Origin: Hysterium pulicare CBS 123377
Taxonomy: Eukaryota > Ascomycota > Dothideomycetes > Hysteriales > Hysteriaceae
DNA: 23,740 bases
Reading direction: 5' to 3'
Assembly (NCBI GenBank): GCA_000467715.1
Contig: AJFK01000482.1
Location: 1-23,740 of the forward strand
In this document: positions 1,077-23,740 of the stretch, one piece after another
Layout of the letters: each line of letters opens with the position of its first letter
How positions within the stretch are numbered: the stretch's first letter is position 1
The notes under the pieces: generated by a model
Told to the model about the DNA's origin: nothing
Databases searched by the model: none
The model's input: only the letters and a program-made list of their open reading frames with translations
Position numbers and translations under genes: made by a program

Positions 1077-3297
1077 TCAAAACACCGCTCCACCAATGAT
1101 GAATACCCTCTCTTCCTCTCGCCGCACCCACTGTATGACTTTATTGGCAGCCTGCGCGAGTGCGGCGCGAGACGTGGTTACGGGCGCTACACAATAGAGC
1201 TCAAACAATGGCGTCGTCCACGCGAGGGCGATGTTAGTCGTAGACGTGGAGTGATGGATCTTCAGCTGTGTAGGCTTGGTATGTAGGTGTGCATGGAGGG
1301 CCTGATACAGATTCATCAATCTAGGGAAGCAAGTTAGCTTTGGTTGCAAGATATATCAGCAACTGCGGAAGTAGTTAGGTGTGGTCCGCGTCTAGGGAAG
1401 CAACGTATCCGATGCTGAGTACGCAGACGGGCAATAGTCATGTATGTTTGCCAAAGCATCCTAACACGTACCGTCTTCGACTCAATGTAGTGCTGAAATG
1501 TGGTTCAAAAGAGGGCATCGTAAATTGGACGTTGCCACGTGACTTGTACAAGAAATGGCGTAGAGGAGATCCGGGTACAATGTCCGTGCAACTCGGGCGG
1601 CCCTGTCTTACTGCCGCACGAATCAATTCAATACTAGAGTTCTTTTGCAGTTGCTGTATGGAACATGTCAGTCCGACCGATTCATCGGGAAGCGGAGTTA
1701 TCGGTGTTAATGTCTCACCTCAACGAGATTGTCTCGCGTTTCGCGTAGTTCAAAAAACCCCTCTTTGTTCGCACTGATCAGAAGGATGGCAACTTCATCT
1801 TGTTCGCCAGATGATGACGCCGGGCGTTCTTCGACTTGCTCCGTGGGTTTTTCTAGATTCAGAAAGCTGACGTACATGTATAGGAAGCCGGTGTTGTTGA
1901 ATCCTGGTAAACAAAGGGGAATCCAATTTTCACCACCACCAGCCTTGACACTACCTGCCTCGAAGAGCATATTGAAAATTAAATGTAGGTCGCCCGGATG
2001 CAAAGAGTGCTTCTTGGGTCTGACGACGCTAACGAGCTTGCCGCCGGCAACTATGAGACCATAAAGGAGGCTTTCGCTTCGTATCTTGAGGAATGTGTTG
2101 TTGATGACTTGGCGGTGCGATTTTCGTAGTTTGAGACACTCGAGTGCCGAAAGTAACGTGGAAGGTGACCCTCGTGTAAATCCATCCGCGAGAGCAGATA
2201 TTAATGTTTCTGTGCCTTGAAGAGGTCTACGAAGGTCGTAAGATGCTCGGTTGGCGAACATGCGTTCCATGCTGGGTAGCGTAAGAGTGGACAATATTTG
2301 CATATACAGTGCATCCAACTGGGCACGCAATTGAGAATCGCTTTCTCCCAATCGAGTAATAGCAACCAAGTTGAGAGGGCCTTTTGTCATAACCACAAAT
2401 CGAACATCACCGGCAGTAAAGCCCCTCAAAAGATCGTTCGCTCCTTGATAGAAAGAGATAATCGTTTGCACAACACCGATATAGTTTGTTATCAGCTGAT
2501 CATCTCCGTGGCGGCTATAAATTGGCTTGCCGGCAGAAGATAGGATGAGGAAATGTTTTAATTTCGATCTCCATTGTACCATTACAGCTTCTACAGAAAA
2601 TAAGAAAATCAGCAGGCGCTCCTAATAACCGGAAGATCCTCTGACCTTCATTCGAGCCATCTGCTTTGATCTCGTCAACCTCATCAAATTCGTGTTCGAA
2701 TGCATGCTCGAAATCCGGATCGTCAGGAAATAGCACTTCATTATGCTCATCGAATGTGTGACCCAAAGACGTGAAAAGAGGTTTCTCAGGGTCCCCGAGC
2801 ACTTCACCTAGCATGCTCTCCGCATAAGCTCCCGTTCCCATGGTGGGCGCGAAGCTCCTAACGCTTGCGGCATCTTCAACATCACTTGCAGCGCGGCTTG
2901 CGCTCGGACTGCTTAACCCCAAATACCTTTTCTTCTTGGTCCCGCCCGATGAGGGTGAGTAATCTCTAGTCTCATCATTGTATGTTTGTGTATCGGCATA
3001 AGACAGTTGCGTGGTTGCTTGCGATTGTAGGCTTGGTCTGGTAGGTCGTGGGCCACTTGAACTTTGCGGCCGTGAGTCCAGAAGAGATACATTCCTCGGC
3101 CGGGGAGGAAGTGGAGGAGGTGTTCCTTCCAGCGAAGGTGAGTCCCCGCTATTTGAGGTATTTCGTGAGGCACTCTGTACTATGTTGATGGTAGGATTGA
3201 TGAAGTCTTTCTGGTTGACCTTATCTCCATCATTAGAAGAGCTCGCGGGAGCTTCTCCCAGAGATTCTGGGTGTTTGGATTGGCTAGTATCACCCAT
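1077..3297 (-). CDS. MON1: Mon1, subunit of the Mon1-Ccz1 Rab7/Ypt7 exchange factor
   Basis: Mon1 pairs with Ccz1 to form the nucleotide exchange factor that loads Rab7/Ypt7 on late endosomes, autophagosomes and vacuoles. Exons on the minus strand are 3297-2646, 2590-1719, 1653-1472 and 1320-1077, giving 649 residues, close to the yeast protein. Introns are 55, 65 and 151 bases; each has a CTGAT, CTGAC or CTAAC branch motif, and all phases join cleanly. The first 215 residues are a disordered, Ser/Pro-rich tail. The conserved part starts at [20 protein letters not shown] (first longin domain, from about residue 229). It continues through [20 protein letters not shown], the [19 protein letters not shown] block and [19 protein letters not shown], and ends at [14 protein letters not shown], all typical of Mon1. 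The ATG at 3297 is the first in frame. The 151-base third intron contains a second copy of its own 3' splice site. The family assignment is secure. Confidence 0.97.
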
Positions 3298-4055
3298 GAA
3301 TGGAGATGCCAGGCATCAATGGGTTATCGGTAGGGGACAAATGTAATTGGTAACATTAACTGGGCCATGGTTGTGGTTGTGAGCAAGGACTTGAGGTTTC
3401 TCGATGACGGTCGTCACTCGAAAGTGGCACGGACCCTTTTCGACTGAGAACTGCATCCAACCGACTTTACAGAGAAATATATCATGCATCGCAGAACTTC
3501 ATCCAGCAAATGAGCGATAAAGCATAGGAGGACGCAGAGTTTCTATCATGTCTATTATGTCAAAATGATTTTATAATCTCCCCATTCGCAGAGTCTGTAT
3601 CAACAGGATGCACGACAAAACCTCTCTACCTCGGCCAAGAGGGCAAATCTTTCCTTAACTACATCCTCATGATGAAATCGTGAGACCCAGAAGAAACATA
3701 TTTCATGTTGCTCTTATATCAAGGCGTCAGACATGTTTCGTATAGCACGTGGGTTGCATGTCTTACACATATACATTCAGGTATTAGGAGTCATTTTCGC
3801 AGATCAACCCGAAGTAACACAATAACCCGGCACTTCATAGGTTTGAGAGGAAGCAATATTATAGCTTGCTTTGGATATAGATAGAAAGCAATGTCTTAAT
3901 CTTATTGTTTTCGATTTGGAGGTATATTTCTTTTCATTACGCCCGTGGCTTACAAGATACGGTGAGGGGTAGCCCCCCAACCATAGTGGGGTAGTCTTAT
4001 AACTTCCGTGTCATGACTGGATCAAAAAAAGGACCCAACTAAGACGCCGGAGAGC
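3298..4055. other. Upstream region of MON1; no gene seen
   Basis: This stretch runs from the MON1 start codon to the tRNA terminator. The first few hundred bases should hold the MON1 promoter and 5' leader. I find no open frame with coding character in the rest. Confidence 0.5.
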
Positions 4056-4061
4056 AAAAAA
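4056..4061 (-). terminator. Pol III terminator of the tRNA-Leu gene
   Basis: On the minus strand a run of six T lies five bases beyond the discriminator base of the tRNA. Such runs end RNA polymerase III transcription. Its presence at the right distance argues that the interrupted tRNA gene is a live transcription unit. Confidence 0.8.
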
Positions 4062-4110
4062 GATATTGACAGCAGTGAGGTTCGAACTCACGCGGGTTTC
4101 CCCAGTAGAG

Positions 4111-4124
4111 GATTCAATGTAGAA
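4111..4124 (-). other. Canonical 14-base tRNA intron after position 37
   Basis: The intron TTCTACATTGAATC sits between G37 and C38, where nuclear tRNA introns belong. Its bases UUGAA can pair with U32-A36 of the anticodon loop, including the U32-A pair at intron position -3, leaving the expected three-base bulge at the 3' site. This fits the bulge-helix-bulge recognised by the tRNA splicing endonuclease. The copy of TCTAC inside the intron mimics the true 3' anticodon strand. Confidence 0.8.
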
Positions 4125-4136
4125 CTTAAATCTACC

Positions 4137-4189
4137 CTTGAGTGAAGGTTAGCTTAATGAAGAGCGAGTAAGTGAGCGGGGGTACGAAC
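4137..4189 (-). other. Putative spliceosomal-type intron 2 after tRNA position 25
   Basis: This 53-base insertion starts GTTCGT, a weaker donor, has GCTAAC with the branch A 12 bases before the end, and ends in CAAG. Removing it joins AAGGC to GGTAGA, which gives both the missing D-stem base C25 and the start of the anticodon stem. It lies only seven bases from intron 1. A cut shifted by one base gives the same product. Confidence 0.6.
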
Positions 4190-4196
4190 GCCTTGG

Positions 4197-4252
4197 CTTT
4201 ATTGATGCGTTAGTATCATCGCTAAGATAGCATGAACAGTGTCCAAACTTAC
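4197..4252 (-). other. Putative spliceosomal-type intron 1 in the tRNA D loop
   Basis: This 56-base insertion starts with GTAAGT, holds a perfect TACTAAC branch box whose branch A lies 13 bases before the end, and ends in AAAG. Size and signals equal those of the protein-gene introns in this window. Removing it joins GAGTGGT to CCAAGGC and restores the D loop. A cut shifted by two bases would also restore a valid D loop, so the exact ends are not fixed by tRNA structure alone. Confidence 0.65.
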
Positions 4253-4271
4253 ACCACTCGGCCATACTGTC

Positions 4272-5600
4272 TTGAAGATGGTATTTTCGAAAATTGAACG
4301 TTAACTACAATATATACACTATCAAGAGCGAATTAAGAGTGAAATTGTGGCACGGCCACGAGTGTTGGGGGCAAAGAAGCGGCAGGGAGCGGAGAAAGCA
4401 TCGGCTGACTACCAAGGTACCACAAGCGTCTTATTCAGTATGTTTCTGATTGGTTAGAATCCTTTCCGTGGCCTCGCGTCACCTTTTTGAAGGATACGAA
4501 ACATCATTCGGTTAAAAAACACATCTAGTAGTTGAAGTCACTTTGATTCAGGGGCTAATCCTACATGCCACAGATTCGAATAGCTCTAAAGTCCAGATGT
4601 GTTCAACATGTGACAGCCTAGAGAACTTACGATATTGAAGAGAAATGATACTCCCTCCCTTGCTGCTCAAAAAAGCAAATATCCAGCGGACTCTGGACAC
4701 TATACCTATCCGGAGCAATGCATCTGTAATTAAGCATCTCAAACCCAAACATTAATACTGACAAAAAATTACAACACAAACCGGTGAGAAGAAGCACGCG
4801 AAGACCTCCCACAAATCAGGTAAAGCGGCGGCCGACTACCCTACCCGATAACGACGGATTGCCTTCCCTCACCGGTGCGATATTCATTGAAAAAGGCCTC
4901 ATAAACGCCCGGTGGACTTCCTTGAATGGGAGATATCATTTTCGCCCGCCGTCGCGGGCGCATGACCGCCGCCTCGGTCGGAGCCATCACTTATATCCGA
5001 GATTCCTACCGGAGATAGCTTATGTACTATGATGCTACACCACAATCTGTACGGGAAAGAAAGTAGGCAGCATAGTGCTACGAATAGCTGGTATTAGAGC
5101 TTGTTACGACTTTGGGTATTCCGGGAATTGGTGCACCTTTCATTTTGTATCTAAGCCCTGTTTGTAATCTGGGATGATGCACCAAAATTGCTGCCTGCCA
5201 TGCACCTTTGAAGGCTGCTCAAAGATGATGGTAGTCAATTCAATAATGATAAACCTATTTTCGAATGCTAGAGGTTTTAGGAGAAGTTCCGTAGGGATGC
5301 TGGTCGGACTGGGGGTAGTTCAAATAACAACTATTCGAATCCTGAGATGCTCAGGATAATTGTACTCCTTTGCTAGCGTTAGTTCCATGTGCCTGAAATA
5401 AAGAATCATTAGAGGCCGAATTGACTGCTAGGAGAGGAAAATCCAGACTCCAAACATCAGTGGAATGATGCATATATTATGAAGTGTTAAGAACTGCCGT
5501 ATCCGAACAATGTAGTACTCGTTCATAGAAATTAGTATACCTTGGTTTGAAAACATTGTTCAGGTGGAAACATCGAGACCTTACCTGTTGTAGATGGCAT
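4272..5600. other. Gene-poor stretch, nothing recognised
   Basis: About 1.3 kb upstream of the tRNA gene holds only short open frames on both strands. None has family motifs or plausible splice linkage. The bases next to 4271 should carry upstream Pol III context. Confidence 0.5.
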
Positions 5601-9404: not shown

Positions 9405-10420
9405 TCAGGTGATGACCGGATTGATAAAATTGTTGAAATCGAGATCGTTGGAATCCTGCCAATTGGGCAGTGTTGGACCTGACGGATGTATCGAATACGG
9501 ATCAAGTAGCATCGCTCCAGAATCGTAGTTGTTCAGCGAGTCGAATGAGGGCATGTACTTGAAATCCATTGGTTCATCCATCATCATCGGTTCTGCAGTC
9601 CATGACGGTTGCGATAGAGTCGATGGATCTAGGCCACTGCGCATCAATGTCGACGCTACGAAAGGATTTTCTAACTTCATTGTCGAGGTTAATTCCGATT
9701 GTCTTGGGAACGGACTGTGCATCGGTGGCGTGGGAGGTGCGTTGTTGCGGGGAAAGGGGTCGGTGAAAGGGACCGATTTCGTTGTTGGTGTACCACCATA
9801 TGATGAGGAAGAGGATCCAATTCCATGTTCAGAATCTGAACTTATCGAACTCCGTCGATGGGTATATGTCGCCCCGTTATCCAGGAGTCGTTGCTGCATA
9901 CGATTGCAGTCCTCTTCAAATCCATCGTAATTGCTACTGCTGTCGGTGCTTGGGTGGAGCAGGTCCAGTCTCTCGAGGATATCATGAGTAAGTGGATGTC
10001 CACCTTGCGCATCAGGCAGCGGACGTCCTGGCCACCCCTGGCCGCTTTGTAATCGGGTGTAGAGTTCTCGAAGACCAGCTACGAGTTGTGTTTGCTGTTG
10101 TTCGAGCATTTCGACATATCTAAATATGTTAGCAATGCGCGGAATATCGTACTGTTAGGGAAGCTTTACCCTTTGGGATACACCTTGTCTTGCGACTTTT
10201 TCCTTTCACCAAACACACATATGGTGTTGTCTGCTTTGCACCGACTGCAAGGACTAGCACCATCACACTGCGATGCAATTAGCTTTTGGGGCACAATGAA
10301 TGATTGTTTGGGTCAACACACCTTTGATTTCTTTAGACGACAGCGATCGCAAGCTTTACACACTCGCTTTCTGATATTATCTTGATGTGACTCCATTGAA
10401 TTTGACCGTTGGCTAGACAT
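9405..10420 (-). CDS. Zn2Cys6 (fungal zinc-cluster) transcription factor
   Basis: Exons on the minus strand are 10420-10322, 10267-10170 and 10119-9405, with introns of 54 and 50 bases, giving 303 residues. The N-terminal cluster reads CDRCRLKKSKC, then PCSRC and a final Cys, with the six ligands at Cys24, 27, 34, 40, 43 and 50 (x2, x6, x5, x2, x6). Intron 1 falls just before Cys34. A basic linker (ERKKSQDKVYPKG) and a short coiled segment (YVEMLEQQQTQLVAGLRELY) follow, typical of dimerising members. The rest is Ser/Pro-rich with acidic aromatic patches such as DDLDF-type motifs near the end, as expected of an activation region. No fungal-specific middle homology domain is present, so it is one of the short zinc-cluster proteins. 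The in-frame ATG at 10420 gives a normal N-terminus. The target is unknown; the neighbouring mutarotase is a possible one. Confidence 0.93.
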
Positions 10421-16757: not shown

Positions 16758-18277
16758 TCAAGTTTTGCCCTGCTCAAACTCTATCTCGCTCTCCATAAGC
16801 TCCGATTCCAATTCCGCATGCAAATCCTCATCCCCAACAACGTGCCCGTCGCGCCCCTCATCTCCCTCACCAAGGCTCTCCCTCTCCGGTCTCAGCTTCT
16901 TCCTGGGTTCACTACTAGCACTTCTACTCCCACTCCTGCTTCCGCTCGTACTCCTACTACTCCCCAACAGACCACCCCCCATCTGCAGCCCAAGCCCCAG
17001 CTTCGCCGCTTCCTCAGGGTGCAGCGCCGCCCACCTCTCGCGCCACCGCTCGCGCATAACATCGTACAGAAAATTGAACTGCGCTTCCCCCTGCACCATC
17101 ATCATCCTCTGCTGCCTTAACCTATCCACCACGTCGATGATCGGATCCATTTCATCTTCCACTTCGTCCAGACTGCCTTCTTCGAGTTCTTGGAGGAGGA
17201 AGTCGAGGGCGATGAAAGAGCCGCTGCGGCCAACGCCCGCGCTACAATGTACGATGCGCGGATTCGCGAGGTTGTGTTCGCTCTTGGTGCGGGAGAGGGC
17301 AATGAGGTTGAGGAGGGCGGCGCGATCGGCGCCTTCGGGAACCAGGAAATCAGGCCAACCGCCGAAGAGGAGGTGGTGGATTTTCCTAGTTGAGGTTTCG
17401 CTCTCGTCGTCTTCGTGTGTTTCGCGCATTTCGAGTTCGCGGATCGTTGCTCGCGTCTCTTCACTTTCCGTGAGGGAGAGAAGAGTGACGGTGCTCGTGA
17501 AACCGTCCGCGAATTCATCGTGCGGGTTGATGGTGATTGTTGGGGAGGAGAGAGATGATGGGTAATAGAGATGACATTTTTCGCGGCCGGATTCGTGGGT
17601 TTGGGTTAGCATTATTATGACGGCCGGAGACTCGGTTTCGTGCCAGATCATGCGCCAAATGTGCGAGGTTTGTTCTGCTTTCGGGCCCTGCGTTGCGATG
17701 TATCTTAGCTCTGTGTCTGACTTGGTCGTCGTCAATACAATCGGCGAGGCATTGATGTAGTCGTTGTGACCCTCCGGCACCTTTAACTTTACCCGATTAT
17801 TTACATACGGATCTACGTTCGCATATCGGTTTCGATTTAGGGCAATTTCTGGGGACACTCGTGCCCATTTGGATGGATATGTCTCTGATTCATGGTTCTG
17901 TGAGGCGTGTGCCAACCGTCTCCTCTGTTCCCACTCTAGATCGACGAATTTGTTATGTATCTCTACAACTCAATTATTAGCCAAAACCTCTCCAAACCAT
18001 TGTAGGACCATGTCTACCTGCCTGTTCTAGTCTGCTTCAAGAAAGCTGGATATGGTGTTGGATCCAACTGCGGCGAAGGTTCTATTATGCTTGGAGTTTG
18101 TGAAGGACTCGGTATAATCAAGGACGGAGCGCTCGCAGAGGGTTGAAGCCCATGAGTATTTATAGGAGACGGGTTTATGACGGCAGGTGTGGTGGCAGAG
18201 GAACGTGTACTATCTCTGGATCGCGAACGCTTGATCGAAGAGGTCGGTGAGGCGGGGACTTCAAGCGGCGTGGACAT
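16758..18277 (-). CDS. Classical protein tyrosine phosphatase
   Basis: The enzyme removes phosphate from tyrosine in signalling proteins; fungal relatives act on stress and mating MAP kinases. Exons on the minus strand are 18277-18022 and 17962-16758, giving 486 residues. The catalytic domain starts at KFVDLEWEQRRRL and NRNRYANVDPY. It has NDYINASPIV, YIATQGPKAEQTSHIWRMIW, the WPD loop GGWPDF (Asp290), the P loop VHCSAGVGRSG (Cys325) and the Q loop QGEAQFNFLY (Gln377). An acidic insert (ETHEDDESETS) precedes the WPD loop. The C-terminal 90 residues are low-complexity Ser/Arg/Glu. The first 85 residues are Ser/Pro-rich. The intron (59 bases, 18021-17963) appears to use GC at its donor, since the nearby GT puts the conserved LEW block out of frame. 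The frame stays open upstream to 18892, so a longer N-terminus cannot be excluded; I chose the ATG with context ACAATGTC. Confidence 0.93.
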
Positions 18278-21990: not shown

Positions 21991-23487
21991 TCATGCACTC
22001 TTTCTCTTATTCTGTTTCTCCAGATACTGTCGAAGTAGCGATTCGGTACTCCCAGGATCATCTCTCTCTTGCACATCTTTCCAGTGACGATAGAATTCAA
22101 GGACTACTTCAACAGCGATGAGTGCGATGATAGCCCATTCGAGTCGGAGACCATGCTTCTCGCTCAGTGATTCCCTCAGCACGCTTGCAATTTCTTGCGC
22201 AAATCCAATTTTCTCGTTCAGAACTTTGATACGTACGCCCACGTCCAAGGCACGACCAACTTGATCATAGTACTCTCCGAGGCCCAACTCATGCCTACTG
22301 TCCCAGAAAATATCGGGCAACGAATCGGTAAGTTCGGAATAGAGATTGAGCTGAGCTCGGATACTCAAGAGTTCGCCGGTCTTGCGTAGGATGAAAGATC
22401 TGTTGAAAGGTATATTTGACCCTTTGGCGAGCATCGTAGGAATGGATCTGGTGGAGTGCTGGTAGGAGCTGAGAAGACTCTCTAACACTGCTAGTTTAGT
22501 GGACCTGGCTAGACCCGATGAGAAGGCGATTTTGGCAAGTATGGTATCGACTTCATGGCGCTGATCTGGTTCATGGGCAGAGCCAGATGCCATTTCATTG
22601 GTGGCTCTCATATTCTGAGTTTGGCTACGCACCGTGACCTCGTCCCGACTATCGGCATCGTGTGATTCTGCCTTTGTGCCCAAGATGATCGTGTCTCCAA
22701 TGATCTCGCTGCTCTCTCTTGTGGGATCCTCTAAATACTCCAAGTCTTCAGTCTCCAATAATTCTAGATGTGAGCCTTCTGCGGACGCTGGGAGAATGCG
22801 ATTGATCAAGCTCAAAGCTTCCGATTGTCGCACATTCCAGGTCACAACAGTTCCAGAAGGGAAAATGAAGATGTCTCCTCGCCCTTGAGATTCCTTGGCT
22901 TCCGATGGTTTCTCTGCCGTCTGCACATGTATGACTTGAGGGTACAATCCCGTAGAGTAGGGGTCGAGCTGATATCCTTGAGCTTTGATCAATCGGGAAG
23001 CGGAGGAAATGTTGTATTGCTCGGCCGCGCAGAAAGCTGTTACAGTCTGGTTGTTTCGAATTGTCAATAAACAGACAGCGCCAATATGGACAATGCTGCT
23101 TACCATTGTATCAACTTCCGGATCCACGAATCTCTTGTTCCCCTTGCCTTTGACAAACCCTCCTCTTGACCTCTGAGCTTCTACTGCTACACTGCGGAGA
23201 GAAGAAGTCTTAGCTGCAGTCTTCCTTGCAGCTTTGCGGTTCTGTCTTTGGTCGTCATCTTTTGGGTCTGTCGATGTGAGGAATTCATCCTTTTGTGGTT
23301 GTTCCTGTCTCCTATATGCGACTCGGGAAGATGCAAATGCTCTTGAAGGCAAGTTCTGCCATTTCGACGGTGCCGGTGTTAAATGAAGGCAAGGTATTCG
23401 GGATGAGCTCCGGTAGCGTGTTGCTTGCGCACTTATCGCGCTGCTCCTAATTAAGCATTTTACCACATTGTTTTGGGGAAAAACCAT
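21991..23487 (-). CDS. MRX10: Mitochondrial DUF155 protein of the Mrx10/RMND1 type
   Basis: Members of this family (yeast Mrx10, human RMND1) are inner-membrane proteins linked to mitochondrial translation. The ATG at 23487 opens a 55-residue presequence-like stretch rich in Arg and Ser and almost free of acid residues (RSSAISAQATRYRSSSR). A basic linker follows, then the DUF155 core, from VTAFCAAEQYNISSASRLI and GLYPQVIHVQT through IFPSGTVVTWNVRQSEA to DIFWDSRHELGLGEYYDQV and GLRLEWAIIALIAVEVVLEF. That last piece is a membrane helix at about 431-447, and a charged tail faces the other side. A 57-base segment (23047-23103) with GTAAGC donor and CAG acceptor sits in frame without stops and interrupts the conserved DPEVDT...TVTAFC join, so I treat it as an intron. 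The spliced protein has 479 residues. The cytosolic paralogue Rmd1 lacks the presequence, which favours Mrx10. Confidence 0.92.
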   Translation of the reverse strand: MVFPQNNVVKCLIRSSAISAQATRYRSSSRIPCLHLTPAPSKWQNLPSRAFASSRVAYRRQEQPQKDEFLTSTDPKDDDQRQNRKAARKTAAKTSSLRSVAVEAQRSRGGFVKGKGNKRFVDPEVDTMVSSIVHIGAVCLLTIRNNQTVTAFCAAEQYNISSASRLIKAQGYQLDPYSTGLYPQVIHVQTAEKPSEAKESQGRGDIFIFPSGTVVTWNVRQSEALSLINRILPASAEGSHLELLETEDLEYLEDPTRESSEIIGDTIILGTKAESHDADSRDEVTVRSQTQNMRATNEMASGSAHEPDQRHEVDTILAKIAFSSGLARSTKLAVLESLLSSYQHSTRSIPTMLAKGSNIPFNRSFILRKTGELLSIRAQLNLYSELTDSLPDIFWDSRHELGLGEYYDQVGRALDVGVRIKVLNEKIGFAQEIASVLRESLSEKHGLRLEWAIIALIAVEVVLEFYRHWKDVQERDDPGSTESLLRQYLEKQNKRKSA

Positions 23488-23740
23488 CGCCAAAAGAGAG
23501 ATGCGATGATTCTTTGTGCATTGCGCTCACCGCTGTGAATTGATGGTGGAATAACGGGGCTTTAATACAGAGAGCTGGAGCTTTCTCGTGCACGTTCTTC
23601 CGAGGCTTGACGCAAGAGCTTGGCATCGACATCACAGCTATTCCCGCCCGACGGTACATTCACCATCTTCAATCCAATCCTGCATTTCTAAGCTTCTTGA
23701 AGCGGTTCTTACACACTCCGCAGCTCATGCATCCAGCATG
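23488..23740. other. Upstream region of the DUF155 gene
   Basis: These 253 bases up to the window edge should contain the 5' leader and promoter of the minus-strand gene. No further gene is supported. Confidence 0.4.

Follow-up and report, generated by a model that had tools for sequence, protein, structure and literature searches.

The genome of the ascomycete Hysterium pulicare CBS 123377 contains a tRNA-Leu(UAA) gene interrupted at three places, by two inserts in its D arm that carry the signals of spliceosomal introns and by a canonical tRNA intron next to the anticodon. The gene lies on the minus strand of the window, i.e. the whole stretch of 23,740 nucleotides of contig AJFK01000482.1 (assembly GCA_000467715.1) that was analysed. 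It is probably a nuclear gene with two U2-type introns in addition to the canonical one, from which the spliceosome would remove the two inserts to yield a working tRNA. In a wider sense, spliceosomal introns have probably colonised a nuclear tRNA gene and been kept there, its Pol III precursor being converted into a working tRNA by two unrelated machineries acting in order, so that leucine decoding would depend partly on the spliceosome.

The four exons, once joined, form an 82-mer that ARAGORN identifies as tRNA-Leu(taa) (Table 1). The same identification is obtained for the 96-mer in which the 14-nt intron is retained. The raw window and the unspliced locus gave no tRNA call with ARAGORN, and the Rfam cmscan of the raw window returned no match at E-values up to 1. 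All 20 stem pairs checked in the 82-mer form (7 in the acceptor, 3 in the D, 5 in the anticodon and 5 in the T stem), one of the acceptor pairs being T-G. The T loop is TTCGAAC, the variable region GGGGAAACCC corresponds to a long variable arm and the 3' end is an A (A73). When the 82-mer is folded as a single strand, the acceptor, anticodon and T arms are drawn and the D arm is misdrawn in the lowest-energy form. The fold only modestly beats shuffled sequences (z -2.05, with 6 of 200 shuffles equally good), which counts against the preferred reading. The initial annotation of this DNA had proposed an 82-base product, three introns of 56, 53 and 14 bases with their coordinates, complete pairing of the stems, intact Pol III boxes and a T6 run after the gene. 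Coordinates, lengths and product are exact on the minus strand, the pairing holds for every pair checked, the A and B boxes are intact and T6 is found at 4061-4056. The interrupted structure of this tRNA-Leu(UAA) gene is real.

Table 1. Features of the interrupted tRNA-Leu(UAA) gene, its Pol III signals and the protein-gene introns of the window used for comparison
Feature	Position	Length	Strand	Remarks
Interrupted tRNA-Leu(UAA) gene	4067..4271		-	First to last mature base; from sequence and ARAGORN
Exon 1	4253..4271	19 bases	-	5' acceptor strand, D stem 5' strand, D loop up to base 20
Insert 1	4197..4252	56 nt	-	Spliceosomal-type (GTAAGT / TACTAAC / AAAG); D loop at 20/20a
Exon 2	4190..4196	7 nt	-	CCAAGGC; D loop end and D stem 3' strand
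Insert 2	4137..4189	53 nt	-	Spliceosomal-type (GTTCGT / GCTAAC / CAAG); at 25/26
Exon 3	4125..4136	12 bases	-	Base 26, 5' anticodon stem, anticodon TAA, base 37
Canonical tRNA intron	4111..4124	14 nt	-	At 37/38, one base 3' of anticodon TAA
Exon 4	4067..4110	44 bases	-	3' anticodon stem, variable arm, T arm, 3' acceptor strand, discriminator A
A box	4254..4264		-	TGGCCGAGTGG; intact; one base from insert 1
B box	4078..4088		-	AGTTCGAACCT; intact
T6, putative Pol III terminator	4056..4061		-	Five bases past mature 3' end
TATA-like stretch	4308..4316		-	TATATATTG; 37-45 bases upstream of mature 5' end; weak, by eye
MON1 intron	2645-2591	55 nt	-	Joins reading frame
Aldose epimerase intron	7757-7706	52 nt		Joins reading frame
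Zn2Cys6 factor, first intron	10321-10268	54 nt	-	Joins reading frame
Zn2Cys6 factor, second intron	10169-10120	50 nt	-	Joins reading frame
Small cupin-like gene intron	21140-21090	51 nt		Joins reading frame

ARAGORN is too permissive to fix the borders of the inserts, since it passes 28 of 97 deletion variants of the locus, 13 of them as tRNAs other than Leu. The class II D-arm motif TGGCCGAGYGGTYNAAGGC was used instead. Of all possible excisions of 20-119 nt within 4300-4040, only that of 4252-4197 restores this motif, and its ends are GTAAGT and AAG. The borders of insert 1 are dictated by the tRNA and independently coincide with splice sites. For insert 2, a shift of one base leads to an identical product and the GT-AG borders are one of two registers. 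The motif itself is that of a normal class II D arm. A scan of viral contigs found it in at least 120 stretches; among the 120 loci listed, which hold 789 tRNAs according to ARAGORN, it occurs in 110 tRNAs (92 Ser, 11 Tyr, 4 Cys, 3 Asn and no Leu). These viral loci were picked by the D-arm motif and consequently provide no independent profile.

The initial annotation described both inserts as mRNA-type, and the full set of spliceosomal-intron signals was indeed recovered in each. Both have GT-AG borders with a GTNNGT donor (GTAAGT...AAG and GTTCGT...AAG) and a CTAAC branch site, the branch A being separated from the final AG by 11 bases (insert 1) or 10 bases (insert 2), with no earlier AG in between in either insert. 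Their resemblance in size to the protein-gene introns of the window had also been pointed out. This is borne out closely, as the five in-frame introns retained for comparison measure 50-55 nt and insert 1 exceeds the longest of this small set by one base. Branch distances in these five introns range from 7 to 16. The donor GTAAGT is shared with the small cupin-like gene and GTTCGT is found in none of the five. The gene models behind the comparison are partly corroborated by Pfam: the joined epimerase covers positions 14-299 of PF01263 in one stretch and the joined Zn2Cys6 factor matches Zn_clus. The small gene with the intron at 21140-21090 has no Pfam match and its cupin-like name is the authors' reading. 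A sixth candidate, a 67-nt intron in a DUF155 gene, breaks the reading frame and was left out. Zn_clus, MON1 and the shortness of the introns suggest a filamentous ascomycete as the host.

Strict intron criteria were defined as GT-AG borders, a GTNNGT donor and a CTRAY branch site before the first following AG, and looser criteria as the same without GTNNGT. All strict signals are carried by two of the five protein-gene introns, those of the epimerase and the first of the Zn2Cys6 factor, so that the strict set measures consensus strength rather than what the host can splice. The MON1 intron and the second Zn2Cys6 factor intron are devoid of a GTNNGT donor, and in the intron of the small cupin-like gene an AG immediately follows the branch site. 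If anything, the two inserts display a stronger consensus than the local average.

Chance assembly of such a structure is ruled out in practice by three controls. In the first, the whole window was cut on both strands into 230-nt tiles every 25 bases, and ARAGORN was run on each raw tile and on all the variants obtained by taking out one GT..AG segment of 45-75 nt or two. A single tile in 1,882 (188,663 variants) yielded tRNAs, and it is this locus. In the second, 200 dinucleotide shuffles of the locus (12,087 variants) gave no tRNA with ARAGORN. In the third, stretches of the size of each insert were examined outside the locus. GT..AG borders occurred in 145 of the 46,848 stretches of 56 nt, a well-placed CTRAY in addition in 4 and GTNNGT as well in none; for the 46,860 stretches of 53 nt, these counts were 167, 8 and 0.

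The splicing signals were then compared between machineries. In the standard register, the central helix of the bulge-helix-bulge motif is complete for the 14-nt intron (4/4), vs 0/4 for insert 1 and 2/4 for insert 2; over nine registers, the best score of the inserts is 2/4. The signal of the tRNA endonuclease is present at the 14-nt intron, as expected, and absent at both inserts, and their assignment as bulge-helix-bulge introns was rejected on these scores. As ectopic tRNA introns cut by the tRNA splicing endonuclease, the inserts would resemble those of Cyanidioschyzon, nucleomorphs and archaea, among which positions 20/21 and 25/26 are known archaeal ectopic sites and tRNAs with several introns exist (PMC4090602, available sections). 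The missing motif is strong but not conclusive evidence against such an origin, because many Guillardia tRNA introns have no defined bulge-helix-bulge either (PMC3978253, available sections). However, the full GT-branch-AG signals would then be a coincidence, and this origin is very unlikely. Group I and group II introns were also rejected, 53-56 nt being too short and the window having no Rfam match. The spliceosome is the one machine left whose signals match.

The internal promoter and the terminator point to transcription of the gene by Pol III. The gap between the A and B boxes is 165 bases, and 42 bases minus the three introns. The longest T run within the gene is three; absence of TTTT was discarded as evidence for Pol III, since 47-49% of the 205-nt stretches of the window also have none. 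A second T run (T7, 4030-4024, minus strand) about 25 bases past T6 could be a back-up Pol III terminator. Spliceosomal splicing normally takes place on Pol II RNA, and the MON1 reading frame, which is on the same strand, starts downstream at a distance of several hundred bases. The tRNA might in that case be embedded in a capped Pol II transcript and be excised from it after splicing. The intact boxes and the T6 just after the tRNA speak instead for Pol III, which makes a Pol II host transcript the least likely of the explanations considered.

A folded tRNA body is what both RNase P and the tRNA endonuclease recognise. The inserts break the D arm, hence the spliceosome should act first. In the proposed pathway, Pol III would make a precursor of ~210 nt by means of the intact A and B boxes, and the spliceosome would excise the 56- and 53-nt introns. 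Only after this step would the tRNA body fold. RNase P and the 3' processing enzymes would then act on the folded body, as would the tRNA splicing endonuclease, taking out the 14-nt intron.

The main rival to an active, spliced gene is a recently disabled copy. According to this explanation, which is unlikely, one tRNA-Leu(UAA) gene out of several received spliceosomal introns or intron-bearing DNA, and this copy, no longer needed or expressed, is yet to decay. Redundant tRNA genes tolerate such losses, and short insertions in the D and T arms of eukaryotic tRNAs have been supposed to mark pseudogenes (PMC4090602, available sections). Nevertheless, two events have apparently occurred, and yet the tRNA is undamaged and the full splice signals are retained. 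A simple and approximate simulation of decay, with a wrong index at one of its 16 fixed positions (C20b for A21), left the tRNA intact in 8% of cases when divergence was 5% and in 0.7% when it was 10%. This speaks against a disabled copy without being decisive, as 61% of cases were still intact at 1% divergence. Old gains of both inserts would mean that the gene is under selection, whereas nothing follows from very recent ones. As to the number of gains, a short-word BLAST against the window gave, for either insert, no match longer than 9-10 bases, whether to the other insert or elsewhere, and two such dissimilar inserts suggest two events. Reverse splicing or intron transposition, proposed in the initial annotation, would be a hypothetical origin for them. 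The 5-mer CAAGG is found at 4195-4191 and 4140-4136 on the minus strand, as a repeat at the two borders of insert 2. It is possibly the trace of a short duplication on insertion and could be due to chance. Scans of viral contigs for interrupted and uninterrupted tRNA-Leu found none of either.

Spliceosomal introns of Pol II RNA and endonuclease-cut introns of tRNA are usually held to be strictly separate, apart from U6 and some rDNA. U6 introns are found in other fungi besides Schizosaccharomyces pombe, and rRNA is a Pol I product. In the portion of the open-access literature searched, no spliceosomal intron was found reported in a nuclear tRNA gene, in agreement with the statement of the initial annotation that no GT-AG intron was established there, and no action of the spliceosome on a tRNA precursor was found documented. 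Within that portion, the Pol III RNA genes known to hold mRNA-type introns are those of U6 and of no tRNA, the closest precedent being U6 of fission yeast. In this yeast, S. pombe, the U6 snRNA gene has a short mRNA-type intron that is removed from this small Pol III RNA during maturation (PMC10484740, available sections). The differences are that U6, unlike a tRNA, works within the spliceosome and so has a route open to reverse splicing, and that the tRNA-Leu(UAA) gene described here combines two introns of this type with a tRNA intron. The tRNA not being a spliceosome component, the special route proposed for U6 is not applicable to it.

Other known systems share part of this arrangement. 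The nuclear rDNA of fungi, which also encodes structural RNA, likewise contains spliceosomal-type introns (PMC11782384, available sections), but no second splicing system operates on the same transcript. Ectopic and multiple tRNA introns have been described in archaea, Cyanidioschyzon merolae and the nucleomorph of Guillardia theta (PMC4090602, PMC3978253). In the last two, a eukaryotic nucleus and a nuclear remnant, tRNA genes likewise have introns elsewhere than in the anticodon loop, with two or three of them in some genes (PMC4090602); in contrast to the present inserts, these introns are either ascribed to the tRNA endonuclease or given no explanation, and the available sections describe no GT-branch-AG signals for them. 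Fungal introners are mobile spliceosomal introns of Pezizomycotina, said to be without target duplications and terminal inverted repeats (PMC9860276, available sections). An introner would be expected to have near-identical copies elsewhere in the genome; within the window, neither insert has a second copy. The text of PMC9860276 does not mention tRNA.

If the preferred reading of a spliced, active tRNA gene is true, the spliceosome can work on a tRNA precursor, the locus would be a clean system for the order of processing, and it would be relevant to the way in which introns spread. Since the gene in its uncut form escapes both ARAGORN and the Rfam scan, a targeted search of fungal genomes may reveal more cases.

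Several protein-coding genes were recognized around the tRNA, all on the minus strand. The MON1 gene (vacuolar fusion protein with FUZ/MON1/HPS1 longin domains, 1707-3315) has a single 55-nt intron; it shares its strand with the tRNA and lies downstream of it. A MON1 pattern scan of viral contigs found 9 stretches, with no relative among them. The Zn2Cys6 transcription factor (9405-10420) has two introns, one of which splits the cluster domain. A protein tyrosine phosphatase is encoded at 16758-17969 (PF00102, E 2e-55). A protein of the RMND1/Sif2-Sif3/Mrx10 family is encoded at 21991-23526 (DUF155, E 8.7e-48), and its gene may have a 57-nt in-frame intron at 23103-23047.
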